Below are positions 8,517 to 25,800 of a stretch of DNA of 64,000 nucleotides, one piece after another. The position numbers and the translations under genes were made by a program. Every line of letters starts with the position of its first letter. The first letter of the stretch is position 1. The DNA is from Bradyrhizobium sp. S69 (lineage in GTDB: Bacteria > Pseudomonadota > Alphaproteobacteria > Rhizobiales > Xanthobacteraceae), in the NCBI RefSeq assembly GCF_009766005.1, contig NZ_LMUK01000042.1, positions 1 to 64,000 of the forward strand. The letters run 5' to 3'. The notes under the pieces were generated by a model. That model did no database searches, was not told the origin of the DNA, and worked only from the letters and a program-made list of their open reading frames with translations.

Positions 8517-9227
8517 TTGGTCAAGGCTAAACGCATTCTGAAGTGGCAGCGCGATCCCGAAGGCATGCGGATTCGTATTCTGGAGGCCGCCAAGCAGGAA
8601 TTCGCCACCCACGGCCTTGCCGGCGCGCGGGTCGACCGGATCGCGGCCAAGGCCGGCGCCAACAAGCGCATGCTGTATTATCACGTCGGCAAGAAGGACG
8701 ATCTCTATCTCGCGGTGCTCGAAGGCGCCTATGAGCAGATCCGGGTCGAGGAGCGCGGGCTCGATCTGGAGCATCTCGATCCGCCGGAAGCGATCGAGCG
8801 CCTGATCGGTTTTACGTGGAATTATTTCATCCGCAATCCGGAATTCCTCGCGCTGTTGAACACCGAAAATCTGGCGAAGGCGCGCCATCTCAAGCGCTCC
8901 ACCAAGGTCAAATCGATGCATTCGCCGTTCGTCGAGATGATCCGGACCGTGGTGATGCGGGGCGTCGCGAACGGCGACTTCCAGGTCGCGGTCGATCCGG
9001 TGCAGCTCTATATTTCGATCGCGGCGCTGTGCTTTTTCTATCTGTCGAACAGCGCGACCTTGAGCGTGATTTTCGGCCGCGACCTCCTGAAGAAGGAGGC
9101 GCGGGACGAGCGCCTCGACCACATGGTGGCGCTGGTGCTGGCGGCGCTGACTGGAAAATCCACCGCGGCGTTCGGCAACAGCAAGGCGCTGAAACACCGC
9201 GCCGCCGCAGCGCATTCCGACGCTTGA
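8517..9227 (+). CDS. TetR/AcrR-family transcriptional regulator
   Basis: This is a 236-residue DNA-binding repressor. The N-terminal helix-turn-helix covers about residues 18-65, with the recognition part RIAAKAGANKRMLYYHVGKKDDLYLAVL, typical of the family. A helical ligand-binding domain follows. The frame opens after a TGA at 8502 and the first possible start is TTG at 8517, giving MVKAKRILKW; the first ATG is 16 codons further on, just before the HTH. TTG is preferred because it retains the full N-terminal arm. The gene precedes the ABC transporter and catabolic operon on the same strand, separated by one repeat, so it is the probable regulator of that operon. The ligand is unknown. Confidence 0.85.
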   Translation: MVKAKRILKWQRDPEGMRIRILEAAKQEFATHGLAGARVDRIAAKAGANKRMLYYHVGKKDDLYLAVLEGAYEQIRVEERGLDLEHLDPPEAIERLIGFTWNYFIRNPEFLALLNTENLAKARHLKRSTKVKSMHSPFVEMIRTVVMRGVANGDFQVAVDPVQLYISIAALCFFYLSNSATLSVIFGRDLLKKEARDERLDHMVALVLAALTGKSTAAFGNSKALKHRAAAAHSDA

Positions 9228-9233
9228 TTTCTG

Positions 9234-9351
9234 CCATCCCGGCGAACGCAGGGACCCATAACCCCTGCGTTTGCTCGAAGGCAAGGCATCGGCCCCAATG
9301 CCTAAAACGCGACGACACGGCGTGGGTCCCGGCGCAAGGCCGGGACGACGG
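9234..9351. repeat. Repeat family D, copy 1
   Basis: Arms of the type CATCCCGGCGAACGCAGGGA at the left and GTGGGTCCCGGCGCAAGGCC plus GGGACGACGG at the right. It has the same architecture as 11400-11520 and the half copy at 44381. It sits between the TetR stop and the operon promoter. Confidence 0.7.
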
Positions 9352-9377
9352 AAGCGAGTTTCCCGCGTCAACGCCCC

Positions 9378-9409
9378 TAGACAGTAATTATCCAACGGGT
9401 TAATTTGTC
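9378..9409 (+). promoter_or_regulatory. Candidate promoter and operator of the catabolic operon
   Basis: TAGACA at 9378-9383 and TAATTT at 9401-9406, separated by 17 bases, make a plausible sigma-70-type promoter. Over the -10 region lies the imperfect palindrome AATTATCCAACGGGTTAATT at 9386-9405 (seven of nine pairs match), flanked further out by GACA and TGTC. It starts about 160 bases after the TetR gene and 35 bases before the permease start. A TetR dimer bound here would block the promoter. Confidence 0.45.
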
Positions 9410-9439
9410 CCCTGAAGCCGGCACGTGAGGGAGAGAGAT

Positions 9440-10249
9440 TTGAGCGAGTCCAAAGCGCCCGGAAGCGTCTCGAAAGCGCTGAATGTGGCGTGGATTCGCC
9501 CGTTTTTGCTGCTGATTTTCATCGTCGTGGCCTGGGATGTGGCGATCCGGCTGTTCCGGATTCCAGCCTACCAGGTGCCGGCACCGGGCGATGTCGTGGC
9601 CGTGCTCTGGAACGATTGGCCGGAGCTGTTGCGCCAGGCATGGCCCACCACCTACGCGACGCTCGGCGGATTCCTGCTGTCGGCGGCGTTCGGCATTCCG
9701 GTCGCGATGCTGATCGCGGGATCGAAGACCATCGAAAGCTACGTCTATCCGTTGCTGGTGTTCTCGCAATCGGTGCCGAAGGTCGCGATCGCGCCCTTGT
9801 TCGTGGTGTGGTTCGGCTTCGGCATCGTTCCGAAAATCATCGCCGCGTTCCTCTTAGGATTTTTTCCGGTGGTGGTCTCCGCGGTGCAAGGTTTCAAATC
9901 GGTCGACCCTGATATGGTCGATCTCGCGCGTGCGATGCAGGGCAGCCGCTTCCATGTGTTCTGCGCGGTCAATTTGCCGCACGCGATGCCGTCGATTTTC
10001 TCCGGCCTGAAAGTCTCGGTGACCTTGGCCGTGGTCGGCGCCGTGGTCGGCGAATTCGTCGGTTCCAATTCGGGCATCGGCTACGTGTTGCAGCGCTCGA
10101 TCGGGACGTTCGATTTGCCGACGATGTTTGCAGCACTGGTGATCCTGGCGCTGCTCGGTGTGATACTGTTCTGGGTGGTCGACCGGATCGAGCGTCTTGT
10201 CATTCCCTGGCATGTCAGCCAGCGCGAGGACATCATTTTCGCGGCGTGA
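9440..10249 (+). CDS. ABC transporter permease (SsuC/TauC type)
   Basis: This is a 269-residue inner-membrane permease with about six transmembrane helices. The conserved EAA-type loop is visible near FKSVDPDMVDLARAMQGS, followed by PHAMPSIFSGLKVS. It belongs to the SsuC/TauC/ThiX group that works with NMT1/SsuA-type binding proteins. TTG at 9440 (MSESKAPGSV) is chosen because a purine-rich GAGGGAGAG stretch lies just upstream; a GTG at 9425 overlaps that ribosome site. It is the first gene of the operon. The binding-protein gene follows after 130 bases that contain a family-B repeat, and the ATPase gene comes third. Confidence 0.88.
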   Translation: MSESKAPGSVSKALNVAWIRPFLLLIFIVVAWDVAIRLFRIPAYQVPAPGDVVAVLWNDWPELLRQAWPTTYATLGGFLLSAAFGIPVAMLIAGSKTIESYVYPLLVFSQSVPKVAIAPLFVVWFGFGIVPKIIAAFLLGFFPVVVSAVQGFKSVDPDMVDLARAMQGSRFHVFCAVNLPHAMPSIFSGLKVSVTLAVVGAVVGEFVGSNSGIGYVLQRSIGTFDLPTMFAALVILALLGVILFWVVDRIERLVIPWHVSQREDIIFAA

Positions 10250-10267
10250 ACGAGAAGAGATACAGAC

Positions 10268-10352
10268 CGTCATTGCGAGCGTAGCGAAGCAATCCAGTTA
10301 GGCCACAAAGGAAGAATGGATTGCTTCGTCGCTGACGCTCCTCGCAATGACG
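10268..10352. repeat. Palindromic repeat family B, copy 1
   Basis: Arms CGTCATTGCGAGCG and CTCGCAATGACG, with inner arms GAAGCAATCCAG and TGGATTGCTTCG. It lies between the permease and binding-protein genes within the operon. Other copies are at 54121, 55519 and 59609. Confidence 0.85.
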
Positions 10353-10379
10353 GAAAACAAAAGCAAAGGGAGAAATAAA

Positions 10380-11378
10380 ATGGTGCGATTAATAGTGGCG
10401 GTAGCCGCTGCCCTGATCTGGATGGGCTCAGTGGTGGCTCCGGCCGCGGCCGCCGATAAGGTCGTGCTGATGCTCAACTGGTATGTCTATGGCGAGCACG
10501 CGCCGTTTTTCTACGGCAAGGCCAAGGGCATCTATGCGGCTGAAAATATCGAGCTCGAAATTCAGGAAGGCCGCGGCTCGGCTGCGACCACCCAGGCGGT
10601 CGCGGCCAAGACCGCCGATTTCGGCTATGTCGACGTGCCCACTATGATGCGCGCGACCGTCAAGGGCGCGCCGATCATTGCGACCGGCGTGCTGCTGCAG
10701 ACCAGCCCGATGTCGGCGATGGGATTCGCCGACAAGAACATCCGCAAGCCCGAGGATATCAAGGGCAAGACCGTGGCGATCACGCCGGCGGATTCGATGA
10801 CGCAGATCTGGCCGCTGTTCCTGAAGCGGACCGGCCTCAAGGAAAGCGATTTCACCACGGTGGCCGGTGACGGCCAGACCAAGCTGAACGCGGTGATCAA
10901 CGGCCAGGCCGATCTTTTGCTCGGCTACGTGATGGACCAGTCGATGAAGATCAAGGACGCCACCGGTAAGGACGTCTATCCGATCAAGTTCGCCGACTAC
11001 GGCATCCACATGGTGAGTTCGGGCCTCGTCGCCAACACCGACTACGTCAAGACCCACACCGATCTGGTCAAGCGCTTCATGTCGGCGACCACCAAGGCGG
11101 TCGAGGCCGCTGAAAAAGATCCGAAGGGCGCGGCCCAGTCGATCCTCGATGCCAACCCCAAGGGCGGCAAGATCGACACCCTGACCCAGGGCTTCGAGCT
11201 GACGATCCCGCTGTACCGTACGCCGGAAACCAAGGGCAAGCGGCCGTTCCAGGTGACCGATCAGAACATGACCGACAGCGTCAACCTGATGGTCGAATAT
11301 GGCGGTCTCGACGCCAAGGCCAAGGACAATCCGAAGATGTTTTATACCAACGACTATCTGCCCGGCGGCGGCTCGTGA
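10380..11378 (+). CDS. ABC transporter substrate-binding protein (NMT1/THI5-like)
   Basis: This is a 332-residue periplasmic protein that captures the substrate for the adjacent permease and ATPase. The signal peptide covers about residues 1-24, ending PAAAA before DKVVLMLNWY. The N-terminus LNWYVYGEHAPFFYGKAKGI is the NMT1/ThiY pattern. The start has a good ribosome site (AAAGGGAGA); an upstream ATG at 10347 lies inside the repeat and is rejected. Relatives bind pyrimidines, riboflavin precursors, sulfonates, taurine or aromatic acids, so the sequence does not name the ligand. The downstream enzymes suggest a polyol, sugar acid or sugar derivative, which would be unusual for this transporter class. 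Confidence 0.87.
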   Translation: MVRLIVAVAAALIWMGSVVAPAAAADKVVLMLNWYVYGEHAPFFYGKAKGIYAAENIELEIQEGRGSAATTQAVAAKTADFGYVDVPTMMRATVKGAPIIATGVLLQTSPMSAMGFADKNIRKPEDIKGKTVAITPADSMTQIWPLFLKRTGLKESDFTTVAGDGQTKLNAVINGQADLLLGYVMDQSMKIKDATGKDVYPIKFADYGIHMVSSGLVANTDYVKTHTDLVKRFMSATTKAVEAAEKDPKGAAQSILDANPKGGKIDTLTQGFELTIPLYRTPETKGKRPFQVTDQNMTDSVNLMVEYGGLDAKAKDNPKMFYTNDYLPGGGS

Positions 11379-11399
11379 GCGAGCGTGTGACAAACTTAT

Positions 11400-11520
11400 C
11401 GTCGTCCCCGCGCAGGCGGGGACCCATACCCCCTGGCCTTAATTGTTGCAGAAGGTCTCCAACCCAATGGCCGAACGAAAAGTCACGGCGTATGGGTCCC
11501 TGCGTTCGCAGGGACGACGG
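11400..11520. repeat. Repeat family D, copy 2
   Basis: It starts CGTCGTCCCCGCGCAGGCGG and ends GTCCCTGCGTTCGCAGGGAC followed by GACGG. It fills most of the gap between the binding-protein and ATPase genes. Confidence 0.7.
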
Positions 11521-11553
11521 GTGGAGAGACTTCGCCTGGATGGATCCTGCTGA

Positions 11554-12402
11554 ATGAACCCAGCGACCAAAACATCGGACATCAATCAACCGGCGGCGCA
11601 TCTGCGCGTGGTGTCCGATCGCACCGCCAGCGCCACCTCAGGGATTCAACTGTCCGGGGTGTCGAAGACCTATCGGTCGCGCGACGGCGAGGTGCCGTCG
11701 TTGCGTCCGCTGGATTTCCATATCAACGAGGGCGAGTTCTTTGTCGTGGTCGGACCGTCCGGCTGCGGCAAGTCCACGCTGCTGAAAATGATATCCGGCT
11801 TGCTGCCCCCTTCGACCGGCGAAATCCTGGTCGAGGGCGAGAAGGTGACGAGCCCGCACGGCAATGTCGGGATCGTGTTTCAGAATTCGCTGCTGCTGCC
11901 GTGGCGCAACATCCTGTCCAACGTGATGCTGCCGATCGACATGAAACGGCTGCCGCGCGACGAATATCTGCCGCGCGCGAAAGCGCTGTTGAAGATGGTC
12001 GGACTCGAAGGTTTCGAGAGGAAGCTGCCGTGGCAATTGTCCGGCGGCATGCAGCAGCGCGCCTCGATCTGCCGGGCGTTGGTGCACGATCCCAAGATCA
12101 TATTAATGGACGAGCCGTTCGGCGCGCTCGATGCGATGACGCGCGAACGCATGAATGTCGAGCTGATGCGGATCCAGCGCGAAACCCGCAAGACCGTCCT
12201 GCTGATCACGCATTCGATCCCGGAAGCGGTGTTCCTGGCCGATCGGGTATTGGTGATGACCGAGCGGCCCGGCGCGATCGCGGCGATCTACGACGTGCCG
12301 ATGCCGCGGCCGCGCTCGCTGGATTCGATGGCCGATCCGGTGTTCACCGATCTGGTGCAGCGCATCCGCAAGCACTTTTTCACCCAGGGTACACTGGATT
12401 GA
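11554..12402 (+). CDS. ABC transporter ATP-binding protein (SsuB/TauB type)
   Basis: This 282-residue cytoplasmic ATPase drives the importer formed with 9440-10249 and 10380-11378. Walker A GPSGCGKS is at 67-74, the Q-loop at VFQNSLLLPW, the ABC signature LSGGM at 162-166, Walker B ILMDEP at 183-188 and the H-loop in LLITHS. The PWR after the Q-loop is typical of nitrate/sulfonate/taurine ATPases. An N-terminal extension of about 30 residues precedes the domain. The enolase-superfamily gene begins five bases after the stop, which ties transport to the catabolic genes. Confidence 0.9.
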   Translation: MNPATKTSDINQPAAHLRVVSDRTASATSGIQLSGVSKTYRSRDGEVPSLRPLDFHINEGEFFVVVGPSGCGKSTLLKMISGLLPPSTGEILVEGEKVTSPHGNVGIVFQNSLLLPWRNILSNVMLPIDMKRLPRDEYLPRAKALLKMVGLEGFERKLPWQLSGGMQQRASICRALVHDPKIILMDEPFGALDAMTRERMNVELMRIQRETRKTVLLITHSIPEAVFLADRVLVMTERPGAIAAIYDVPMPRPRSLDSMADPVFTDLVQRIRKHFFTQGTLD

Positions 12403-12407
12403 GTCCG

Positions 12408-13802
12408 ATGCGTTTGGCGGTGCGCGATATCGCGTTTTTCGAGCGGCCGGTGGCATTCGTGCGGCCGTTCCGGTTCGGCGCCGTGGTCATCAATGCCGCG
12501 TCGCAGATGTTCGTTCGCGTCGAAATCGAGGTCGAAGGCAAAGGTCCTTCAGTTGGCGCCAGCGCGGAAATGCTGGTTCCAAAGTGGTTCGACAAGCGCG
12601 CGCATCTCAGCCCGGACGAGACCGTTACCGAATTGCGCCGCTCGCTGCTTATCGCGCGCGATCTCTATCTCGGACACAAGGGCTTTGACACCGCGTTCGG
12701 TCTGCACGCCGCCTGCATCGGCGCGCAGGTCGAAGCCTGTGCGAAAGAAGACATTCCGCCGCTGGCGGCGGCCTATGGCCCCGCCGAAATCGATAAAGCC
12801 ATTCTCGACGCGCTGTTGCGCAGCGCCGGGGTCAATTTCTTCGACGGCATGATCGGCAATATCTCCGGCATCGATGCGCGGCTGTCGCCGGATCTGGCGA
12901 ATGGCGACATCGCGCAGTTTCTCAGCGATCGAAAGCGGCTGGAACGCGTCGCGATCCGCCACACCGTCGGTCTCGACGACAAGGTCGAGGGCGCGGGCGG
13001 CGTCGCGGACGCGAAAGAAAACACCGGCGCCCGCTTTTTCAAGCTGAAACTCAACGGCGATCCCGACGCCGACGCCGCGCGACTGATCCGGATCGGCAAT
13101 GAGCTCGCCACTTTGGCCTATGACTACCGCGTTTCGCTGGATGCCAACGAGCAATATGCCGACCTCGTGGCGCTGGGCGCTTTGATGGATCGGCTCGATC
13201 GCGACGGCGCGCTGCGGCCGATCGCGGCAAAGCTGCTTTATATCGAGCAACCGATGCCGCGCGATATCACCCGGCAATCGCCGCTCGGCCGACTGAGCGG
13301 CCGCGACTTCATCATCGACGAAGCCGACGATTCCTACGACGCATTTCCCGCTGCCCGGGCGCTCGGCTATCGCGGCATCTCGTCGAAATCCTGCAAAGGC
13401 ATCTACAAGTCGGTGGTCAACGCGACGCGGGCGGCGAAATGGAGTTCCGGCAGCGAAACGTTCTTCGTCACCGGCGAAGACCTGACCTGCCAGGCTGGCC
13501 TTGCCGTGCAGCAGGACCTCGCGCTCGGCGCGTTGATCGGCGTCAGCCACGCCGAGCGCAACGGCCATCATTATGTCGATGGTTTTGCCGATACGCCGCC
13601 GGCCGAGGCGCAAGCGTTTCTCGCCGCCCATCGCGATCTCTATGTCAACGACGACGGCAAGGTGCGGCTTTCCATTCGCGACGGCGATCTGCTGACGGGA
13701 TCGCTGGTCGCACCGGGTTTTGCGACGTCGGTCCATCCTGACTGGTCGTCGCTGCCGTCCCTCGAACAGCCAAAAGCAAGAACACAGGAGCAAACACTAT
13801 GA
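12408..13802 (+). CDS. Enolase-superfamily protein (mandelate racemase/muconate lactonizing enzyme-like)
   Basis: This is a 464-residue TIM-barrel enzyme. The superfamily residues are in order: a K-x-K pair at 212/214 (FKLKLNGD), the metal ligands Asp245 (SLDANEQY), Glu280 (YIEQP) and Asp304 (IIDEAD), and a second base Lys327 (GISSKSCKG). This layout supports abstraction of the proton alpha to a carboxylate, usually for acid-sugar dehydration or racemisation. It is longer and more divergent than classical sugar-acid dehydratases, with extended N- and C-terminal parts. The start is the ATG five bases after the ATPase stop. The stop overlaps the next ATG (ATGA). The likely role is the dehydratase or epimerase of the operon; the substrate is unknown. 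Confidence 0.8.
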   Translation: MRLAVRDIAFFERPVAFVRPFRFGAVVINAASQMFVRVEIEVEGKGPSVGASAEMLVPKWFDKRAHLSPDETVTELRRSLLIARDLYLGHKGFDTAFGLHAACIGAQVEACAKEDIPPLAAAYGPAEIDKAILDALLRSAGVNFFDGMIGNISGIDARLSPDLANGDIAQFLSDRKRLERVAIRHTVGLDDKVEGAGGVADAKENTGARFFKLKLNGDPDADAARLIRIGNELATLAYDYRVSLDANEQYADLVALGALMDRLDRDGALRPIAAKLLYIEQPMPRDITRQSPLGRLSGRDFIIDEADDSYDAFPAARALGYRGISSKSCKGIYKSVVNATRAAKWSSGSETFFVTGEDLTCQAGLAVQQDLALGALIGVSHAERNGHHYVDGFADTPPAEAQAFLAAHRDLYVNDDGKVRLSIRDGDLLTGSLVAPGFATSVHPDWSSLPSLEQPKARTQEQTL

Positions 13803-14950
13803 CGACCAAACGTCTCGGCGTGATCATGAACGGGATCACCGGCCGCATGGGCCTGAACCAGCATCTGATCCGCTCGATTGTGGCGATCAGGGATTCCGGC
13901 GGCGTGCAGCTTTCGAACGGCGACCGCATGATGCCGGATCCGATCCTGGTCGGCCGCGATGCCGACAAGGTCGAGCGCCTGGCCAAGCGCTTCAATGTCG
14001 AACGCTGGACCACCGATCTCGACCAGGCGCTGTCCGACAAGAACGACAGCATTTTCTTCGACGCCGCGACCACGCAGGCGCGTCCCTCGCTGCTGACCCA
14101 GGCGATCAACGCCGGCAAACACGTCTATTGCGAGAAGCCGATCGCGACCAATCTCGATGAAGCGGTGGCGGTGCTGCGATTGGCGCAAGCCAAGGGCGTC
14201 AAGCACGGCACCGTGCAGGATAAGCTGTTCCTGCCGGGCCTGAAGAAGCTGGCGTTCCTGCGCGATTCCGGTTTCTTCGGCCGCATGCTCTCGGTGCGCG
14301 GCGAATTCGGCTACTGGGTGTTCGAAGGCGGCTGGCAGGAGGCGCAGCGGCCGTCCTGGAACTATCGCAGCGAAGACGGCGGCGGCATCATTCTCGACAT
14401 GGTCTGCCACTGGCGCTACGTGCTCGACAATCTGTTCGGCGAAGTCGAGAGCGTCAGCTGCACCGGCACCACCGACATTCCCGAGCGCTTCGACGAGAAG
14501 AACAAGAAATACACCGCGACCGCGGACGATTCCGCCTACGCGACCTTTCGCCTCAAGGGCGGCGTGATCGCGCACATCAACATGTCCTGGGTCACGCGGG
14601 TATATCGCGACGATCTCGTCACCTTCCAGGTCGATGGCACCCATGGCTCGGCGGTGGCGGGCCTGACCGATTGCGTGATCCAGGCGCGGCAGGCGACACC
14701 GCGGCCGGTGTGGAATCCGGACGAGAAGCGCACGCATGATTTCTATGCCGATTGGCAGAAGCTGCCGGAGAACGTCAGCTACGATAACGGCTTCAAGGAG
14801 CAGTGGGAGATGTTCATCCGCCACGTCTGCGAGGACGCGCCCTATAAATATACGCTGCTGGAGGGCGCCAAGGGCGTGCAGCTTGCCGAATGCGCGCTGC
14901 AGAGTTGGCGTGAACGGCGCTGGGTCGACGTTGCTCCGATCAAGGTGTGA
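13799..14950 (+). CDS. Gfo/Idh/MocA-family oxidoreductase
   Basis: This is a 383-residue NAD(P)-dependent dehydrogenase. The N-terminal Rossmann fold begins RLGVIMNGITGRMG. The catalytic lysine motif CEKPIA is at 111-116, and a D-x-x-x-H pair at Asp200/His204 (ILDMVCHW) sits where the family's proton-relay residues usually lie. The family oxidises hydroxyl groups of sugars, inositols and glycosides, including C3 oxidation to 3-keto sugars. It overlaps the upstream gene by four bases and is followed ten bases later by the DUF993 gene. It probably performs the first oxidation in this pathway, but neither the substrate nor the position of oxidation can be read from the sequence. Confidence 0.85.
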   Translation: MTTKRLGVIMNGITGRMGLNQHLIRSIVAIRDSGGVQLSNGDRMMPDPILVGRDADKVERLAKRFNVERWTTDLDQALSDKNDSIFFDAATTQARPSLLTQAINAGKHVYCEKPIATNLDEAVAVLRLAQAKGVKHGTVQDKLFLPGLKKLAFLRDSGFFGRMLSVRGEFGYWVFEGGWQEAQRPSWNYRSEDGGGIILDMVCHWRYVLDNLFGEVESVSCTGTTDIPERFDEKNKKYTATADDSAYATFRLKGGVIAHINMSWVTRVYRDDLVTFQVDGTHGSAVAGLTDCVIQARQATPRPVWNPDEKRTHDFYADWQKLPENVSYDNGFKEQWEMFIRHVCEDAPYKYTLLEGAKGVQLAECALQSWRERRWVDVAPIKV

Positions 14951-14960
14951 GGATCAAGCC

Positions 14961-16154
14961 ATGAACAAGCCGGTTTTGTCCGTCTCGTCGCTGTCGCTGA
15001 AATTGCCCACCGGCACTCGCGAGATCGAGACCTATCGCCTCGCGGCATCACGAACGTTTCCGGCCAAACTTGAAGGCACGTTGAACCGCGTGGCGTTTTC
15101 CGCAGCGCATGTCGTCGCCGATCCGCTGGCCGATGTCGATCCGTGGCTGAGCGCCGCGGTCGATTGGGACAGGACCATCGCCTTTCGCGAACATGTCTGG
15201 GACCTCGGTCTCGGCGTCGCCGAAGCGATGGATACCGCGCAGCGCGGCATGGGACTGGACTGGCCGACCTCGCTGGAACTGATCACGCGTTCGGTGAGGG
15301 CGGCGAAGGCGAGGGGCGGCGCGCTGGTGTTTTCCGGCGCCGGCACTGATCATCTCGCGGTCGAGGATGCCAGGACGATCGACGACGTGATCCGCGCCTA
15401 TGAGGAACAAATCGCGGCGGTCGAGAAGGCCGGTGGCCGGATCATCCTGATGGCGTCGCGGGCACTGGCGAAGCTCGGCCGCAACGCGGACGACTACGCC
15501 AAAGTCTATGACCGCGTGCTGTCGCAGGTCCGCGAGCCCGTGATCATCCATTGGCTCGGCGACATGTTCGATCCGGCGCTGGCGAATTACTGGGGCACGG
15601 CGAGCCTCGACCAGGCGATGGATATCGCGGTCGGCATCATCAACGCCAATGCCGCCAAGGTCGATGGCGTAAAAGTTTCGTTGCTCGACAAGCAGCGCGA
15701 GATCGACATGCGCCGGCGGCTCGATCAACGCGTCAAGATGTATACCGGCGACGATTTCAACTACGCCGAACTGATTGCCGGCGACGCGCAGGGCTTTTCG
15801 CATGCGCTGCTCGGCATCTTCGATGCGATCGCGCCGGCGGCGTCCTATGCGCTGTCGCGGCTCGCGGCGGGCGACGAGGCCGGTTTCCGCGACGTGCTGG
15901 AACCAACGGTGCCGCTGTCGCGTCATATCTTCAAGGCGCCGACACGCTTCTACAAGACCGGCGTGGTGTTCATGGCCTATCTCAATGGCCATCAGGATCA
16001 TTTTACGATGGTCGGCGGGCAGGAGAGCACGCGATCGACCTTGCATCTGGCCGAACTGTTTCGCCTGGCCGACAAAGCAGGGTTGCTGGCAAATCCGGAA
16101 GTAGCGACGCGGCGGATGAAGGCCGTGCTCGCGCTGCGAGGCATCGAACCCTGA
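14961..16154 (+). CDS. DUF993 protein, dihydrodipicolinate-synthase-like TIM barrel
   Basis: This 397-residue cytoplasmic protein matches the DUF993 family as I recognise it. Conserved segments include GMGLDWPTSLELI at about 96-108, VFSGAGTDHL, VIIHWLGDMFDPAL, the lysine-rich VDGVKVSLLDKQREIDMR, and GDDFNYAELIAGD. The family is often annotated as dihydrodipicolinate synthase-like, so an aldolase or retro-aldol role is plausible; I am not aware of an established reaction. The lysine in GVKVSLLDK could form a Schiff base. The start ATG follows the oxidoreductase stop by ten bases. The stop overlaps the next start (TGATG). Confidence 0.8.
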   Translation: MNKPVLSVSSLSLKLPTGTREIETYRLAASRTFPAKLEGTLNRVAFSAAHVVADPLADVDPWLSAAVDWDRTIAFREHVWDLGLGVAEAMDTAQRGMGLDWPTSLELITRSVRAAKARGGALVFSGAGTDHLAVEDARTIDDVIRAYEEQIAAVEKAGGRIILMASRALAKLGRNADDYAKVYDRVLSQVREPVIIHWLGDMFDPALANYWGTASLDQAMDIAVGIINANAAKVDGVKVSLLDKQREIDMRRRLDQRVKMYTGDDFNYAELIAGDAQGFSHALLGIFDAIAPAASYALSRLAAGDEAGFRDVLEPTVPLSRHIFKAPTRFYKTGVVFMAYLNGHQDHFTMVGGQESTRSTLHLAELFRLADKAGLLANPEVATRRMKAVLALRGIEP

Positions 16155-17017
16155 TGCGGGACTTTTCCGCCGACCATCGCTGGCTGTCGCTCAATACCGC
16201 GACGGTTCGCAAGCAGGGCGACCTTGTGCACATCGTCGAGGCCTGTGCGCGGCATGGCATTCGTGCCATCGATCCCTGGCGCGACCAGGTCGCTTCCATC
16301 GGTCTTGATCGCGCGGTACGCGCGGTGCGCGATGCCGGGCTTGAACTATCGGGCTATTGCCGCGGCGGCATGTTTACCTCGGACGCCGCGCGCCGCATCG
16401 AAGTGCGCGACGACAATCGCCGCGCCATCGATGAAGCCGTGGCGCTGGGCGCCCCCTGCATCGTGCTGGTGGCCGGCGGCCTGCCGCAATATTCGCGGCC
16501 GGGCAGTGCGGCCTCCAGGGACATCGTCAAGGCGCGGACGCAGGTCACCGATGCGATCGCCGAAATGCTGGTCTATGCGAGCGAAGCCAAGATGCCGCTG
16601 GCGATCGAGCCGCTGCATCCGGCCTATGCCGCGGACCGCGCCTGCGTCAATACGACGATGCAGGCGCTGGATATTTGCGACCAACTGGACCCGCAACGCA
16701 CCGGCGCACTCGGTGTTGCGCTCGATGTCTATCACATCTGGTGGGATCCGGAGGTGTTGCCGCAGATCGCGCGCGCCGGCCAGGATCGCCTGCTCGCGTT
16801 TCACGTCTGCGACTGGATGGTGCCGACTAAGGACATCCTCAACGACCGCGGCATGATGGGCGACGGCGTCATCGACATCAGGTCGCTGCGCTCGGCGGTC
16901 GAGGCGGAAGGATTTTCAGGCTATTCCGAGATCGAGATCTTTTCCAACGCCTGGTGGGACAGACCGATCGACGAAGTTTTGCAGACCTGCATCGAGAGAC
17001 ATCGGTCGGCGGTCTGA
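16154..17017 (+). CDS. Sugar phosphate isomerase/epimerase-like TIM barrel protein
   Basis: This is a 287-residue protein of the xylose-isomerase-like (AP-endonuclease 2) fold. Four probable metal ligands occur at the usual positions: Glu152 (IEPLHP), Asp191 (LDVYHIWWD), His217 (FHVCDW) and Glu261 (EIEIFSN). The RGMMGDGVIDI segment lies where substrate phosphate or hydroxyls bind in relatives. The family includes ketose 3-epimerases, inosose dehydratases and enzymes that cleave 3-keto glycosides. It overlaps the DUF993 stop by one base and is the last gene of the tightly packed operon. With the Gfo/Idh/MocA partner it may act on an oxidised sugar or inosose. Confidence 0.82.
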   Translation: MRDFSADHRWLSLNTATVRKQGDLVHIVEACARHGIRAIDPWRDQVASIGLDRAVRAVRDAGLELSGYCRGGMFTSDAARRIEVRDDNRRAIDEAVALGAPCIVLVAGGLPQYSRPGSAASRDIVKARTQVTDAIAEMLVYASEAKMPLAIEPLHPAYAADRACVNTTMQALDICDQLDPQRTGALGVALDVYHIWWDPEVLPQIARAGQDRLLAFHVCDWMVPTKDILNDRGMMGDGVIDIRSLRSAVEAEGFSGYSEIEIFSNAWWDRPIDEVLQTCIERHRSAV

Positions 17018-19724: not shown

Positions 19725-20270
19725 ATGCACGTCCGCGCCGAATCCTCCGACGAACAAGCGACCGCCTGGCCGGAAGACATATTTGAGATTTTGCAGCGTT
19801 TCGATGTCCGTCAGGTGCCCTATGTGCCGGATGCCGGGCACTCCCAACTGATCAATCGGGTGCTCGGCGAGCCCTCGATGCGGGCGGTGCCGCTGACCAC
19901 GGAAGAAGAGGGTGTGGCGCTGTTGGCGGGCGCCTGGGCCGGAGGCCAGCGCGGCGCGCTGCTGATGCAGTCGAGCGGCGTCGGCAATTGCATCAATATG
20001 TTCTCGCTGACCCAGATATTCCGGCTGCCGTTCCTGACGCTGGTGACGATGCGCGGCGAATGGGGCGAATTCAATCCCTGGCAGGTGCCGATGGGATCGA
20101 GCACCCAGGCGGTGTTCGAATTGTCCGGCATCAAGGTGTTGCGGGCGTCGCGCGCCGACGAAGTCCGCGATGTCGTCGAAGCCGCGGCGGGACAGGCCTA
20201 CAACGCCTGCACGCCGACCGCCGTTTTACTGTCGCAGCGCCTGATCGGCGCAAAGGTCTTCACCAAATGA
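19725..20270 (+). CDS. ThDP-dependent decarboxylase alpha subunit (sulfopyruvate/phosphonopyruvate decarboxylase type)
   Basis: This 181-residue protein corresponds to the N-terminal (pyrimidine-binding) half of ThDP decarboxylases. The acidic TTEEEGVALLAGAW at about 58-71 supplies the Glu that activates the cofactor. LLMQSSGVGNCINMF at 79-93 is the matching family block. The start is the ATG giving MHVRAESSDE. The gene overlaps the beta-subunit gene by four bases (ATGA), so a heteromeric enzyme is likely, as in archaeal ComDE, where subunits of about 170 and 190 residues are used. The substrate could be sulfopyruvate, phosphonopyruvate or another 3-substituted pyruvate. It is divergent from the P450 gene. 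Confidence 0.75.
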   Translation: MHVRAESSDEQATAWPEDIFEILQRFDVRQVPYVPDAGHSQLINRVLGEPSMRAVPLTTEEEGVALLAGAWAGGQRGALLMQSSGVGNCINMFSLTQIFRLPFLTLVTMRGEWGEFNPWQVPMGSSTQAVFELSGIKVLRASRADEVRDVVEAAAGQAYNACTPTAVLLSQRLIGAKVFTK

Positions 20271-20857
20271 GCAAAGCCAACCTCCTCGACCGCCGCCAAG
20301 TCGTTGCCAGCCTGTTGGCGGACCGCAAGGGTGCCATCGCGATCGGCGGCCTTGGCGCCTCGACCTACGATATCGCCGCCGCCGGCGACCATGATCGCAA
20401 TTTCTATCTGTGGGGCGCCATGGGCGGCGCGGTCATGATCGGGCTCGGCATCGCGCTGGCGCAACCCAAGCTGCCGGTGGTCGTGATCACGGGCGATGGC
20501 GAGATGCTGATGGGTATGGGCAGTCTTGCCACCGTCGGCCTGCAAAAGCCCGGCAATCTCACCATCGTCGTGCTCGACAACGAGGCCTATGGCGAAACCG
20601 GCGGGCAGGCGAGCCATACCGCCGCGGGCGCCGATCTCGTCGGCGTCGCCAAGGCCTGCGGCATCGACAAGGTCTTCAGCATGACGACGATGGCCGAGGT
20701 CGAGGCGTTCGCGCCTTCCTTGCAGGATGTCTCGGCAGGGCCCCGCTTTGCCAGCGTCAAAATCGACGCCGCCAACCTCGAACGGGCGCTGTCCAACCGC
20801 GACGGCACCTTCATCGTGAACCGCATCCGCGGTTCACTGGGATTCAAGCCGATTTGA
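20267..20857 (+). CDS. ThDP-dependent decarboxylase beta subunit
   Basis: This 196-residue protein corresponds to the C-terminal (diphosphate-binding) half of ThDP enzymes. The cofactor motif begins GDGEM at 76-80 and ends with Asn105 in VLDNEAYGETG, the usual GDG to N spacing of about 26 residues. GGQASHTAAGADLVGVAKACG follows, as in phosphonopyruvate and sulfopyruvate decarboxylases. The gene begins inside the stop codon of the alpha subunit. Together the pair makes one complete decarboxylase active site at the subunit interface. The expected product is an aldehyde and CO2. An Xsc or phosphonoacetaldehyde-hydrolase gene that would settle the substrate is not nearby. Confidence 0.78.
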   Translation: MSKANLLDRRQVVASLLADRKGAIAIGGLGASTYDIAAAGDHDRNFYLWGAMGGAVMIGLGIALAQPKLPVVVITGDGEMLMGMGSLATVGLQKPGNLTIVVLDNEAYGETGGQASHTAAGADLVGVAKACGIDKVFSMTTMAEVEAFAPSLQDVSAGPRFASVKIDAANLERALSNRDGTFIVNRIRGSLGFKPI

Positions 20858-20940: not shown

Positions 20941-21642
20941 ATGTCTACCCTGCGCATGACCAGCGACCTGCGGCGGCAGCTCATTTTGGGGGCCGCCAAG
21001 CGCTGTTTTGCGCGCAACGGCTTTGCGGGGACGACGACCAAGCGGGTGGCGGCTGCGGCCGCGATCTCGGAAGCCTTGTTGTTCAAGCATTTTCCGTCGA
21101 AGGCCGCACTTTATGCCGAGATTCTGGCCGACGAGTGCGAGGCCGATCCGGACTTGGCGCATTTGTTGGGTCAGGAGCCATCGACCGCGACGCTGGTTGA
21201 ACTGACCGTGGGCATGGTCCGGCATTTCCTGCATATCTCCGATAGCCCCGATCAGCAGGAAGCGCAGCGCGTCCGGCTGATGGTGACGAGCCATCTCGAT
21301 GACGGCGAATTCGCGCGGCTGCTATATGCCAAGGTCGGCGACCTGATCGGGCCGGTGTTCGCCGCCTCGATCGATCGCGCGGTAGCGGCGGGCGAGGCGA
21401 CGCGGATCGGAGGCGAGCCGCTCAACCTGTTCTGGTTTGCCCATCACACCGTGCTGATGGCTGCGGTTTCAAGGATGCCGGCCGTGCCCTGTCTTTCCTA
21501 CGGCAACGCGGCCGATGTCGAGCGGCAGCTTTGCGAATTCATTCTCCGTGGAATTGGACTTAACGAAGCCGCGATTGCCTCGCGTCTGGCCCGCGAATTG
21601 TCGCCGGGTTCGGGGCAGCCGGTCATTGCAGAAAGTGCATGA
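20941..21642 (+). CDS. TetR/AcrR-family regulator of the RND efflux operon
   Basis: This is a 233-residue repressor. The HTH lies at about residues 10-56, with GAAKRCFARNGFAGTTTKRVAAAAAISEALLFKHFPSK being the family's N-terminal region. The C-terminal half is a helical drug- or ligand-sensing domain. The start is the ATG seven bases after the candidate operator. The stop overlaps the adaptor gene start (ATGA), so regulator and pump share one transcript and the repressor probably controls its own synthesis. The inducer is unknown; cationic drugs, dyes or solvents are typical for such systems. Confidence 0.88.
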   Translation: MSTLRMTSDLRRQLILGAAKRCFARNGFAGTTTKRVAAAAAISEALLFKHFPSKAALYAEILADECEADPDLAHLLGQEPSTATLVELTVGMVRHFLHISDSPDQQEAQRVRLMVTSHLDDGEFARLLYAKVGDLIGPVFAASIDRAVAAGEATRIGGEPLNLFWFAHHTVLMAAVSRMPAVPCLSYGNAADVERQLCEFILRGIGLNEAAIASRLARELSPGSGQPVIAESA

Positions 21643-22838
21643 CAATGAACATTGCGACCGAAGCTCATATCGCAGGCAAGCCGATCGCCGACAAGCCAAA
21701 GGCGCGTCCGGTCCGGATGGTGCGCTGGTTCATCATCGTCGGGTTGCTGCTGGCTTTCCTGACGGCCGCGTTGGTCGGCTTCAACGCCTTCCGCGACCAT
21801 GCGATCAAGCAGTTCTTCGCCGGCAACAAACCGCCGCCGACGCCGGTTAGCATTGCCGTGGCCAAGTCCGAGGTGATTCCGAACCTGCTGAAGGCGGTCG
21901 GCGATCTTGCCGCCGTGCATCAGGTCAACGTCACCTCCGACGTCAGCGGCCGCATCACCGGCATCATGTTTGAGGCCGGCTCGACCGTGAAGGCGGACAG
22001 CCCGCTGGTGCAGTTGTTCGACGCTCCCGATCAGGGCGATCTCGCGAGCTTCAAGGCGCAGGCCGTGGTGGGGCAATTGTCGCTGGATCGTGCCAAGCAG
22101 CTCGCTGCAAAACAGTTCGGTCCGCAGTCGACCGTCGATCAGGCGCAGGCGACGTACGACCAGGCTATCGCGGGTATCGCCAAGACCCAGGCGTTGATTT
22201 CGCAGAAGCTGGTGCGGGCGCCGTTCGACGGCGAGCTCGGCGTGCGTCACATCGAGGTCGGCCAGTACCTCACCGCCGGCACGATGATCGTCACCTTGAC
22301 CGACCTGTCGATGCTGTACGCCAATTTCACCGTAACCGAAAAGCAAAGCGCCCAGCTCAAGGTCGGACAGACCGTGCGCGTACAGGTCGATGCTTATCCA
22401 CAGCGTAATTTCGAGGGCAAGATCACCACGATCGAACCTCAGATCTCAGCCGACACCCGCAACATCCATGTTCAGGCGACGATCGCCAATCCCGATCTTA
22501 TCCTGAAGACCGGTATGTTCACGACCACCACGGTGGTGCTGCCGGACAATCCGGCGGTCGTCACCGTCCCGGAAACCGCGGTCGATTACACGCTCTACGG
22601 CGATTCGGTCTTCCTTCTCACCGAGAAGAAAGATGATGACGGCAAGACCAGCCTGACCGCCGTACGCACCTTCGTGCGGACCGGTAACCGGATTGAGGGC
22701 AGGACCGAGATCCTCAGTGGCGTGAAGCCCGGCGATCGCGTGGTCGCGGTGGGCCAGCTCAAGCTGCAATCGGGAGCCGCGGTGGCCATTTCGCCCGACG
22801 GGCCGCCGCCGATGCCCGCCAATCTTCCGCGCTACTAA
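21639..22838 (+). CDS. RND efflux transporter periplasmic adaptor (MexE/AcrA type)
   Basis: This is a 399-residue membrane-fusion protein. A single N-terminal membrane anchor, WFIIVGLLLAFLTAALVGF, lies at about 30-48 with no lipobox. The biotinyl-lipoyl halves (VTSDVSGRITGIMFEAGSTV and VRAPFDGELGVRHIEVGQYL) flank a short helical hairpin rich in Ala and Gln. A beta-barrel and membrane-proximal domain follow. It links the inner-membrane pump to an outer-membrane channel. It overlaps the TetR stop by four bases and the pump gene follows after 32 bases. No outer-membrane factor gene is present, so a channel encoded elsewhere must be shared. Confidence 0.9.
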   Translation: MTMNIATEAHIAGKPIADKPKARPVRMVRWFIIVGLLLAFLTAALVGFNAFRDHAIKQFFAGNKPPPTPVSIAVAKSEVIPNLLKAVGDLAAVHQVNVTSDVSGRITGIMFEAGSTVKADSPLVQLFDAPDQGDLASFKAQAVVGQLSLDRAKQLAAKQFGPQSTVDQAQATYDQAIAGIAKTQALISQKLVRAPFDGELGVRHIEVGQYLTAGTMIVTLTDLSMLYANFTVTEKQSAQLKVGQTVRVQVDAYPQRNFEGKITTIEPQISADTRNIHVQATIANPDLILKTGMFTTTTVVLPDNPAVVTVPETAVDYTLYGDSVFLLTEKKDDDGKTSLTAVRTFVRTGNRIEGRTEILSGVKPGDRVVAVGQLKLQSGAAVAISPDGPPPMPANLPRY

Positions 22839-22870
22839 TTTGCCGCGCTACTAATTTTTGGAGTTGAGCG

Positions 22871-25800
22871 ATGGCCTGGACCGATATCTTTATCAAGCGG
22901 CCGGTGTTGGCGCTGGTCGTGAGCCTTTTGATCCTGCTGATCGGATTCAAGGCCGCGACCAGCCTGCCGATCCGGCAATATCCGAAACTGTCGAACACGG
23001 TGGTCAATGTCACCACGGTTTATCCGGGTGCGTCGGCCGATTTGATCCAGGGTTTCATCACGACCCCGATCGAGCAGGCCGTCGCCTCGGCAGAAGGCGT
23101 CGACTACATGACGTCGTCGTCGGTGCTCGGCACCAGCACGATCCAGGTCTACATCAAGCTGAACTTCGACCCGAACCAGGCGCTGACCGAAGTCCTCGCC
23201 AAGGTCAACTCGGTCAAATATTTGATCCCGAAGGAATCCAACGATCCGATCGTGACCAAGACCACCGGCCAAACCACGGCCGTGATGTATCTCGGGTTTT
23301 CCAGTGAAACGCTATCGGGATCGGCGATCTCGGATTACCTGACGCGCGTGGTTCAGCCGGTGCTGTCCACCGTCGATGGCGTGGCGTCCGCCGATATTCT
23401 CGGCGGCCAGACCTTCGCGATGCGCCTGTGGCTCGACCCCGCCCGCATGGCGGGCCGTGGCGTTTCGCCGCTCGATGTTTCCGCCGCGATCGCCGCCAAC
23501 AACTTTCAGTCCGCGGCGGGTCAGTCCAAGGGTTATTTCATCGTCTCCAACGTTTCGACCAATACCGACCTGCAGAACATCGATCAGTTCAAGCGCATGA
23601 TCGTCAAGGCAAAGGACGGCGGTTTCGTGCGGATGGAGGACGTCGCCACCGTCGAACTCGCGGCGCAAAGCACCGATGCCAGCGTCGCCTTCAACGGCGA
23701 GCATGCGATCTTCATCGGCGTGCAGGCAACCCCGCAGGGCAACCCCTTGACCCTGGTCAAGGGTGTCCGCACGCTGTTTCCCGAACTCGAACGCAATCTG
23801 CCGCCATCGATGAAGATGAAGGTGGCTTACGATTCGACCAAATTCATCCAGTCGTCGATCGACGAAGTGGAAAAGACGCTGGGCGAGGCGATCCTGATCG
23901 TGGTCGTGGTGATCTTCCTGTTCCTCGCGTCACTTCGATCGGTGATCATCCCCGTGGTGACGATACCGTTGTCGCTGGTCGGCGTCTGCAGCCTGATGCT
24001 GGTGATGGGATTCAGCATCAATCTGCTGACCTTGCTGGCGATGGTGCTGGCGATCGGTCTCGTGGTCGACGACGCCATCGTGGTGGTGGAGAACATCCAT
24101 CGGCATCTGGAGGAAGGCAAACCTCCGGTGCAGGCCGCGATGCAGGGCGCGCGCGAGATCGTCGGCCCGGTCATCTCGATGACGATTACGCTGGCGGCGG
24201 TGTATGCGCCGATCGGCTTTCTCGGCGGCCTCACCGGCGCGCTGTTTCGGGAGTTCGCCTTCACGCTGGCCGGTTCGGTGATCGTATCAGGCGTCATCGC
24301 GCTGACGCTGTCGCCGATGATGTGTTCGATCTTCCTCAAGAACACCGAGGAAGGGCGGTTTGCCAAGCTCGTCAACAAGGTCTTCGGCGCGGTGACGCGC
24401 TGGTACGGCCGGCAGCTCGATCGCTCGCTCGACTATCGTCCGATCACCGCGATGTTCGCGCTGACCATCCTCGGGCTGGTCGGCTTCCTCTACATGCATA
24501 CGTCGAAGGAACTCGCGCCCGAGGAAGACCAGGGTATCGTGTTCGCGGTGACCAAGGCGCCGAAATACGCCAACATCGATTATGCGGATTTTTACAGCGA
24601 GAAGCTCGACAAGGCTTTTGCCGGCTTTCCCGAAACCGATCTGCGCTTCATCATCAATGGCATCAACGGCCCGCAGGGCGGTATCGCCGGCATGCTGCTC
24701 AAGCCGTGGGACGAGCGGACGCGCTCGGCCATCAAGCTGAAGCCGCTGGTGCAGGCGCAAATCAGCAAAATCGAGGGCGTCAACGCGTTCGCCTTCAACC
24801 TGCCGCCGTTGCCCGGTGGTCCGGGTGGTTTGCCCGTGCAGATGGTAATCTACTCGACCAACGGCTTTCAGTCGATCTATGAGCAGATGGTCAAGTTGAA
24901 GGATGCTGCGCGCAAGAGCGGCATGTTCATCGTCTCCGATAGCGATCTCGACTTCAACCAACCGGTGGTGAGGATCAAGATCGACCGCACCAAGGCCAGC
25001 GATCTCGGTATCACGATGCAGAGCATCGGCAATACACTGGCGACGCTGCTCGGCGGCAATTACGTCAACCGCTTCAATCTCGAGGGGCGGTCGTATCAGG
25101 TGATCCCGCAGGTGCCGCGCGATATGCGGCTGTCGCCGGAATCGCTCGGCGAATATTATGTGCCGACCGCAACCGGCCAGCAGGTGCCGCTGTCGACACT
25201 GGTTTCGATCGAGACCGGCACCGATGCCAATGCGTTGACGCATTACAATCAGCTCAACTCGGCGACCTTCTCGGCCGTGCCGATGCCGGGCGTGACCGTC
25301 GGTCAGGCGGTGGACTTCCTGGAGGCTCAGGCCAAGAACCTGCCGACCGGCTTCAGCCACGATTATCTGGCGGATTCCCGGCAATATGTGCAGGAAGGCA
25401 ACCAGCTCGCGGTGACCTTCGGGTTTGCGCTGATCATCATCTTCTTGGTGCTGGCCGCGCAATTCGAGAGCCTGCGCGATCCCTTGGTGATCATGATCAG
25501 CGTTCCCATGGCCATTGTCGGCGCCATGCTGCCGCTGTTCTTCGGCGCCGCCACCATGAACATCTATACCCAGGTGGGCCTGCTCACGCTGGTCGGGCTG
25601 ATCAGCAAGCACGGCATCCTGATGGTCGAGTTCGCCAACGAGTTGCAGCTCAATGAGGGTCTCGACCGCCGTTCGGCGATCGAGATGTCGGCGCGGGTTC
25701 GGCTGCGGCCGATCCTGATGACGACCGCGGCGATGGTCACCGGCCTGATTCCGCTGCTGACGGCGTCCGGCGCGGGTGCGGCGAGCCGGTTCTCGATCGG

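Follow-up and report, generated by a model that had tools for sequence, protein, structure and literature searches.

A DUF993-containing operon of Bradyrhizobium sp. S69 and its possible role in the catabolism of a polyhydroxylated carboxylic acid

The DNA analysed here (the window) is a stretch of 64,000 nucleotides from contig NZ_LMUK01000042.1 of Bradyrhizobium sp. S69. Positions 8517–17017 carry eight genes on the plus strand, encoding a TetR-family regulator, an ABC permease, an NMT1-type periplasmic binding protein, an ATPase, a predicted enolase-superfamily enzyme (ENO), a Gfo/Idh/MocA dehydrogenase (GFO), a DUF993 protein and a TIM barrel of the AP_endonuc_2 family (ISO). We propose, with a probability of about 45%, that this operon serves the TetR-repressed uptake and catabolism of a polyhydroxylated carboxylic acid, either a sugar acid or a cyclitol acid, which may be free or part of a small conjugate. 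Three points led to the choice of this substrate class: the feeder enzyme should act beside a carboxylate, importers of the Tct type are frequent partners, and both GFO and ISO are members of families of polyol and keto-sugar enzymes. That the genes form a single catabolic pathway, as a first-pass annotation of the window had claimed, is very likely, given the conserved gene order and core, the co-occurrence of ENO with DUF993, a shared palindromic site and intact active sites. The eight genes, their positions and their common strand were likewise borne out on re-reading the sequence. The family assignments made at that stage hold by Pfam for seven of the eight proteins (all except ENO), and the close packing described for the enzyme genes agrees with the measured gaps: 5 bases separate the ATPase gene from ENO, ENO and GFO overlap by 4 (ATGA), GFO and DUF993 are 10 bases apart, and DUF993 and ISO overlap by 1 (TGATG).

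Gene order, operon variants and a shared palindrome

The loci of 80 relatives were fetched by DUF993; they are the best 80 of 591 confirmed loci and are biased to near relatives. Among them, the order permease–binding protein–ATPase–ENO–GFO–DUF993–ISO is kept in 69, the order ENO–GFO–DUF993–ISO in 72 and GFO–DUF993–ISO in 78, and several of the 11 loci without the complete seven-gene order stop at contig edges. A TetR homologue is present in 72 of the 80. The complete order was seen in Bradyrhizobium, Tardiphaga, Microvirga, Ancylobacter, Rhodomicrobium, Chelatococcus, Azospirillum and Phreatobacter. DUF993 itself was found in 56 of the 60 searched genomes of the host genus and in 68 of 100 relatives (the S69 genome being counted in both), as well as on 147 plasmid records, including those of Pseudomonadota, Actinomycetota and Gemmatimonadota; the family spans at least three phyla. 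Records of Haladaptatus and Natronococcus were among those counted in a plasmid search for ENO.

An unselected sample of 289 genomes, drawn evenly from the class and including S69 itself, contains DUF993 in 25 genomes and a full-length ENO in 21, four weak or partial ENO matches (G021, G125, G178 and G229) not being counted. With S69 excluded, both genes occur in 16 of the 288 genomes, ENO only in 4, DUF993 only in 8 and neither in 260 (Fisher p 4.5e-17, uncorrected for shared ancestry). The two genes are on separate contigs in five of the 16 genomes (G015, G044, G087, G093 and G200) and about 1.7 Mb apart on one contig in G182; in G200, GFO, TetR, a second DHDPS-like gene and ENO lie together on a contig other than that of DUF993. 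Neighbours on the same strand and within 6 kb were counted at 25 DUF993 loci of the class sample, with the S69 operon left out. ISO is near DUF993 in 22 of these loci, GFO in 18, both together in 18 and ENO in 10; two loci (G087 and G200) have DUF993 alone, and three loci (L254, L262 and L263) are near contig ends or on short contigs. A ketoacyl-reductase-like SDR is near DUF993 in four, one of them (G044) at only 29% identity. The 19 annotated ENO loci of the same sample (G200 excluded) have a second isomerase (ISO2) nearby in 14 cases, GFO in 11, DUF993 in 10 and TctA in 9. ENO was found in 11 of 36 genomes that carry DUF993 and come from the relatives and phylum samples; G028, one of the 36, also belongs to the class sample. 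Judged by these neighbour counts and the latter figure, GFO–DUF993–ISO is the core and ENO a frequent extra. The enzyme genes are thus conserved together in other genomes, on which the first-pass annotation had made its single-pathway idea depend, both in the full order (69/80) and as GFO plus ISO beside DUF993 at unselected loci (18/25).

The importers that accompany the core vary among NMT1-type ABC systems (the S69 type and a more distant subtype), TctABC, CUT1 ABC, Rbs ABC and MFS; on Sinorhizobium plasmids (L175 and L187) the order GFO–DUF993–ENO–ISO stands with a CUT1-type importer. A second type of DUF993 operon has an SDR in place of GFO and adds, variously, acyl-CoA dehydrogenase, ETF, CoA-transferase, enoyl-CoA hydratase, glycerate kinase and GMC oxidoreductase. 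This type was found in Janthinobacterium, Rhizobium anhuiense, Paracoccus kondratievae and Sinorhizobium and Rhizobium plasmids. On a plasmid of Streptomyces sp. NBC_00557 (L174), a DUF993 gene at 9908–11095 lies immediately 5′ of a type I polyketide synthase gene, and DUF993 may therefore also serve biosynthesis in actinomycetes.

The TetR-family regulator (8517–9227; Pfam TetR_N and TetR_C_29, E 2.3e-42; best NCBIfam model RutR, far below its cut-off) is the probable repressor of the operon. Its presumable operator is the palindrome TTATCC-AACG-GGTTAA at 9388–9403, which has no strand and is conserved upstream of the permease gene. The exact sequence TTAWCCNNNNGGTTAA occurs once in the 7.5-Mb S69 genome, at 9388–9403. 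Sites within one mismatch of the S69-type pattern are at chance level there (19 rows, 39 for the control); such near-matches carry no weight, and only the exact match counts. An initial palindrome scan gave mostly lineage-specific matches, and the Azospirillum palindrome alone led to the form TTAACC-N4-GGTTAA. At up to two mismatches this form lies upstream of the permease gene in 63 of 74 loci, compared with 2 of 74 after one shuffle each, and the remaining 11 loci have a poor site or none. At up to one mismatch, GTAACY-N4-RGTTAC gives 52 sites in 31 of 57 loci where 0.95 are expected from shuffles, and most of them lie 25–270 bases before matches to TetR, GFO, ISO2, TctC, the binding protein, the ATPase or the permease. 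Both counts are partly circular, the consensus having been drawn in part from the same loci, and a count over whole genomes with a reversed control pattern is the fairer test. In 25 whole genomes, 29 exact sites were found versus 14 for the reversed pattern. It is the location of the sites and not their number that is the evidence: 24 of the 29 are at DUF993 or ENO loci, one is on a short contig, 1.4 kb away from an ISO homologue, and four (G279:C23, G200:C140, G200:C190 and G194:C119) have no core pathway gene nearby. Across 48 loci, the site is present in 24 of the 32 with a TetR gene and in 4 of the 16 without one (p 0.0016).

Of 33 loci of other kinds (mostly of the SDR/GMC type, but also three Rhizobium loci with ENO only and a small number of others), 10 carry the site, with 16 sites in all. 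In S. meliloti, Sinorhizobium sp. M103, R. anhuiense and P. kondratievae one site lies about 35 bases before the acyl-CoA dehydrogenase gene, and in some operons of the second DUF993 type a site also precedes CoA-transferase genes. Three of the ten positive loci are near-identical Sinorhizobium operons and hence not independent, and two (L173 and L263) look like chance. The palindrome ties many, though not all, of the variants to one regulon, presumably with one effector. Behind or near it, other genomes carry a PhyH dioxygenase, a second Gfo/Idh/MocA enzyme, a nucleotide-sugar-epimerase-like SDR and a GNAT protein. PhyH genes near the palindrome occur in other genera (L222:4522-6376, L226, L253, L256 and L259), and a further DHDPS-like protein (about 355 residues), whose family reached no NCBIfam cut-off, is encoded behind or near it in L222, L303 and L304. 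These extra genes suggest that the feeder chemistry varies among lineages. In genome G148, which has no DUF993 match at all, a TctABC–TetR–ISO2–ENO–GFO–ISO cluster without DUF993 (L217) is present, and it provides a natural test of the contribution of DUF993.

The four enzymes

The DUF993 gene (14961–16154; DUF993 E 1.2e-187) encodes a predicted DHDPS-fold enzyme. Its AlphaFold model superposes on the structure of SMc04132 from S. meliloti (4dnh) with a Z-score of 43.1, and on DHDPS (4i7u) with a Z-score of 24.9 and a root-mean-square deviation (rmsd) of 2.6 for 282 residues. Because the model itself is only moderate (pLDDT 75.1), the conclusions on the fold rest on the match to 4dnh. In DHDPS-family enzymes a catalytic tyrosine, Tyr133 in the E. 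coli enzyme, follows strand 5. A profile alignment places Lys238 of DUF993 on the Schiff-base lysine of that family (GVK, strand 6) and His197, followed by Trp198, on this tyrosine. Both Lys238 and His197 are invariant in 40 of 40 sequences covering the two operon types. Searched against the PF00701 model, DUF993 gives no match, and PF06187 is the only family reported at E 0.001. DUF993 therefore shares with the DHDPS / N-acetylneuraminate lyase / KDG aldolase superfamily (PF00701) the fold and the aligned Schiff-base lysine, and differs from it in forming a separate family, in having His197-Trp198 for the tyrosine and in being about 100 residues longer. With His197 in the place of the family tyrosine, a reading of DUF993 as an ordinary 2-keto-acid aldolase of the DHDPS family is not supported. 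The DHDPS fold and the aligned lysine nonetheless make it rather likely that DUF993 acts as a Schiff-base lyase.

ENO (12408–13802) gives no Pfam, NCBIfam or PDB sequence match of its own. One of its relatives (L167) matches MR_MLE_C (E 1e-11), and a profile built from the ENO alignment finds dipeptide epimerase, chloromuconate cycloisomerase and N-acylamino-acid racemase (E 2.5e-6 to 3e-3). The AlphaFold model (pLDDT 89.6, pTM 0.92) presents the capping domain and barrel of the enolase superfamily; it superposes on a muconate lactonizing enzyme (MLE; 3dg6) with a Z-score of 32.4 and an rmsd of 3.0 for 349 residues, and on a putative epimerase (3r0u) with a Z-score of 32.4 and an rmsd of 2.8 for 351 residues, with a Foldseek E-value of 1.5e-15 against MLE and epimerase structures. 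The MLE-type subgroup has three metal-binding acids together with lysines on strands 2 and 6, and enzymes of this lysine–lysine kind catalyse epimerisation, cycloisomerisation or beta-elimination next to a carboxylate. Lys212, Lys214, Asp245, Glu280, Asp304 and Lys327 of ENO are invariant in 32 of 32 sequences, a partly overlapping set of 99 sequences agrees on the motif, and Lys327, on strand 6, falls on the lysine of SLKLC in 1nu5 in a HMMER alignment. By profile search, predicted fold and the MR_MLE_C match of its relative, ENO is assigned to the enolase superfamily as an MLE-type (muconate-lactonizing/epimerase) member. Like the MLE, dipeptide epimerase and N-acylamino-acid racemase subgroup, it has the fold and the K-x-K, D, E, D, K set; it differs from this subgroup in its identity of 12–20% (among the 50 rows shown), its roughly 100 additional residues and its lack of a Pfam match.

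Acid-sugar dehydratases of the MR/GlucD type use a His-Asp dyad with the histidine on strand 7, where ENO has no histidine (353–359). With the strand-6 lysine present and with MLE, dipeptide epimerases and N-acylamino-acid racemases as the nearest folds, ENO does not appear to be the acid-sugar dehydratase it was first taken for, a comparison that covers the His-Asp (MR/GlucD) type of dehydratase. The catalytic residues whose absence from DUF993 and ENO the first-pass annotation had considered fatal to its idea are retained in both enzymes. ENO probably catalyses a feeder step, since it is optional (present in 10 of the 25 loci) and often stands beside the second isomerase and TctABC. Rhizobium plasmids L185, L186 and L188 carry ENO relatives (44%), annotated as mandelate racemase or hypothetical protein, in a different cluster, with a Dpp-type ABC system, KduI/IolB, GH39, a TIM barrel and a 2-hydroxyacid dehydrogenase; the shared palindrome is absent from these three loci.

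GFO (13799–14950; Pfam GFO_IDH_MocA) matches PDB entry 3oqb with 803 bits over residues 1–382. The next match, at 61 bits, is scyllo-inositol/L-glucose dehydrogenase, its nearest PDB relative with a named substrate. The Rossmann and C-terminal domains are both present, and Lys113 (EKP), Asp200 and His204 (D-x3-H) are conserved in at least 98% of 60 rows, presumably as the same kind of Lys-Asp-His triad as that given for Pl-scyllo-IDH in the available text of PMC5969746. ISO (16154–17017; AP_endonuc_2 E 6.6e-36) belongs to a class of isomerases, epimerases or beta-eliminases. It matches 3ju2 (SMc04130) and 3qc0 with 335 bits and 7vpf with 242 bits, entries named only 'uncharacterized protein', 'sugar isomerase' and 'Xylose isomerase'. 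Glu152, Asp191, His217, Glu259 and Glu261 of ISO are found in at least 98% of 123 rows; they are compatible with a metal site, but are probably common to much of the AP_endonuc_2 class. The best NCBIfam models are IolG for GFO and IolO for ISO, and GFO also weakly matches levoglucosan dehydrogenase, all equivalog models being far below their curated cut-offs.

Substrate and proposed route

In the route that we infer, from substrate class and order of steps to Schiff base and cleavage products, the ABC system would import the polyhydroxylated acid, and ENO would take the proton beside the carboxylate and epimerise, isomerise or eliminate to give a compound for the common core. GFO would use NAD(P) to turn a secondary alcohol into a ketone, and ISO, probably metal-dependent, would move or invert groups adjacent to this ketone. 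Lys238 of DUF993 would then form a Schiff base with the substrate, followed by cleavage into small pieces, one of which would probably be at the level of hydroxypyruvate, tartronate semialdehyde or glycerate. The acid character is suggested by the alpha proton that an MLE-type enolase is expected to abstract and by the presence of TctABC with ENO or the core in many loci; the polyol character by the inositol, L-glucose and levoglucosan dehydrogenases as the weakly nearest relatives of GFO and by the CUT1, Rbs and MFS transporters found with the core; and the glycerate-level product by the glycerate kinase gene that adjoins DUF993 in several operons. The order first drawn up for the pathway (oxidise, isomerise, dehydrate, cleave) is not supported as written. 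The argument from the importer class to a substrate with a heteroatom is also weak, because the importer is swapped in other lineages, where the same core works with Tct, CUT1, Rbs and MFS transporters, and its class says little about the substrate.

Several findings weigh against this proposal. The replacement of the tyrosine by a histidine in the DUF993 alignment means that standard DHDPS-family chemistry cannot be assumed. The alignment itself is weak by sequence and rests mainly on the fold, with a hhalign probability of 45% and E 2e-4 in a single comparison from which one misframed row (L232) of the DHDPS profile was dropped (64% and 9e-6 with that row). DUF993 is missing from 4 of the 20 ENO genomes of the class sample, and it also stands with CoA enzymes, GMC oxidoreductases and a polyketide synthase, where the same chemistry is not obvious. 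A glycerate kinase gene is near DUF993 (within 6 kb) in only 2 of the 25 class-sample loci and is absent from the S69 operon. The exact palindrome is absent in 5 of the 25 whole genomes, and no site was found in 23 of the 33 loci of other kinds, including the GMC/LacI type and the three ENO-only Rhizobium loci. Finally, the closest matches of the NMT1-type binding protein, namely Thi5 and formylaminopyrimidine-binding proteins, do not hint at a sugar acid.

What other substrates could such an enzyme set serve? A glycoside might be opened by oxidation and elimination, in which case GFO would oxidise C3 of the glycosyl unit, ISO would eliminate the aglycone as AtOGE and LgdB1 do, and DUF993 and ENO would process the 3-keto sugar. 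According to the available text of PMC10628242, the OGE operon of Agrobacterium combines oxidoreductases and two putative sugar phosphate isomerases/epimerases, of which one was shown to be a Mn-dependent beta-eliminase, and levoglucosan is opened via oxidation and beta-elimination in the part available of PMC7676230. The weak match of GFO to levoglucosan dehydrogenase, the invariant acids and histidine of ISO, the ISO2 and second Gfo/Idh/MocA genes of some regulons and the GH39 gene near the Rhizobium ENO relatives would all fit such a route. However, no DHDPS-fold or enolase-superfamily enzyme is mentioned for the OGE and levoglucosan pathways in those texts, both routes finish there with a reductase step whereas the S69 operon has no second dehydrogenase, and Tct importers do not suggest neutral glycosides, so that we regard a glycoside as unlikely.

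Alternatively, the substrate could be an inositol derivative carrying a methyl, amino or carboxy group, which GFO would convert to an inosose and ISO would dehydrate or epimerise, with DUF993 opening or cleaving the ring product. The best NCBIfam matches (IolG and IolO) and the scyllo-inositol dehydrogenase nearest to GFO point in this direction, as do the PhyH dioxygenases, whose genes follow or adjoin this site in other genera and which could add or remove groups, and the KduI/IolB gene, which accompanies the ENO relative in Rhizobium only. This cyclitol route is nevertheless improbable: every Iol match is far below its curated cut-off, ENO is expected to require a carboxylate, and no homologue of IolB, IolC or IolD, the partners in rhizopine/inositol (iol) catabolism, was noticed among the labelled DUF993 neighbours, no search aimed at these three having been made. 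A generic assortment of enzymes under one promoter, with no single route, is highly improbable, for although transporters and dehydrogenases are exchanged between lineages and all of the enzyme families except DUF993 are large and promiscuous, the conserved order, the partly unlinked co-occurrence and the shared site largely refute it.

Returning to the catabolism of a polyhydroxylated acid, we tentatively suggest a more specific role for DUF993, namely that it might be a distinct Schiff-base C–C lyase (with lysine and His-Trp in place of the DHDPS-family tyrosine) central to an undescribed catabolic pathway, which, at least within the class, would have one TetR operator and exchangeable importer, dehydrogenase and feeder enzymes (ENO with ISO2, PhyH, CoA enzymes). 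If so, the pathway would act as a funnel into which a group of related natural compounds with an undescribed breakdown is fed. Should DUF993 turn out to be a lyase whose active site is new, a Pfam family of 'unknown function' would gain a chemistry, and a widespread carbon source of soil or rhizosphere may be identified. With a shared operator, a reporter can be used to test directly for the inducer and, through it, for the substrate.

Neighbouring features and known systems

The importer genes of the operon comprise an SaoP/SsuC/TauC-like ABC permease (9425–10249; BPD_transp_1 E 1.5e-33; SaoP, SsuC and TauC are the best NCBIfam models, below their cut-offs), the NMT1/Thi5-like periplasmic binding protein (10380–11378; NMT1 E 1.4e-42), whose profile is nearest to 4nmy, Thi5 and 3ix1, and an ABC ATPase of the taurine/nitrate type (11554–12402; ABC_tran E 4.7e-33), all on the plus strand. 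For the permease, a start at TTG 9440, behind a stretch resembling a ribosome-binding site, is more likely than GTG 9425. The spacers preceding these three genes are 130–197 bases each and contain inverted repeats. That between permease and binding protein holds a dispersed palindromic repeat at 10267–10353 (CCGTCATTGCGAGCGNAGCGAAGCAATCC and its inverted partner), of which 78 genome copies were found at up to two mismatches and none for the control. Since the upstream ATG of the binding protein gene, the first one, sits within this repeat, a start at 10380 is more likely than one at 10347. A second inverted repeat, of 41 bases, is located at 11400–11519.

Outside the operon, an upstream VOC gene and downstream FMN dehydrogenase and P450 genes were considered as pathway members and rejected, since they are not operon-linked beyond close relatives (within the locus DNA fetched, close relatives versus others: VOC, 50/58 versus 0/22; P450, 41/58 versus 0/22; FMN dehydrogenase, 3/58 versus 0/22). 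The P450 gene (18285–19511) adjoins two short adjacent genes at 19725–20857, the second of which matches TPP_enzyme_C and the first of which has no match; we take them to resemble halves of a thiamine-pyrophosphate-dependent decarboxylase of the sulfopyruvate or phosphonopyruvate decarboxylase type. Genes for a TetR protein, a membrane-fusion protein and an AcrB-type RND pump follow consecutively at 20941–25966.

Three of the operon proteins have homologues with PDB entries (3oqb for GFO, 4dnh for DUF993, and 3ju2 and 3qc0 for ISO) for which no reported substrate was found. In the SMc04130–SMc04133 region of Sinorhizobium meliloti 1021, the ISO homologue SMc04130 (3ju2) and the DUF993 homologue SMc04132 (4dnh) both have solved structures. 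SMc04132, SMc04133 and SMc04135 are table rows in the available part of a PhaR paper (PMC12542648), and SMc04134 is termed a transcription factor in that of a network paper (PMC11387232). No functional paper on DUF993/PF06187, 4DNH, 3QC0, 3JU2, 7VPF, 3OQB or SMc04130–04137 was found in the open-licence literature, beyond which subscription papers are possible. The kinds of enzyme are known; their combination and the regulon are undescribed in the open-licence literature searched.

The Agrobacterium OGE and Bacillus smithii levoglucosan operons resemble the S69 operon in having dehydrogenase and sugar phosphate isomerase-like enzymes that act beside a new ketone (PMC10628242, PMC7676230). They differ from it in their products, which are glucose and an aglycone, or glucose, and in the available texts no Schiff-base lyase or enolase-superfamily enzyme is mentioned for them. 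The L-glucose/L-gluconate pathway of Paracoccus laeviglucosivorans 43P comprises LgdA, LgnH, LgnI, LgnE, LgnF and LgnG. Different from the S69 operon, which has no kinase, cleavage there is performed by a KDPGal aldolase after phosphorylation; the available text of PMC12632266 mentions no DUF993 or enolase-superfamily enzyme, and the likeness of GFO to its dehydrogenase amounts to only 61 bits. In logic, by analogy, this route is nevertheless the nearest to the one proposed here: in the portions available of PMC12632266 and PMC5969746, a scyllo-inositol/L-glucose dehydrogenase of the Gfo/Idh/MocA family acts first, and its product is then epimerised, dehydrated and cleaved.

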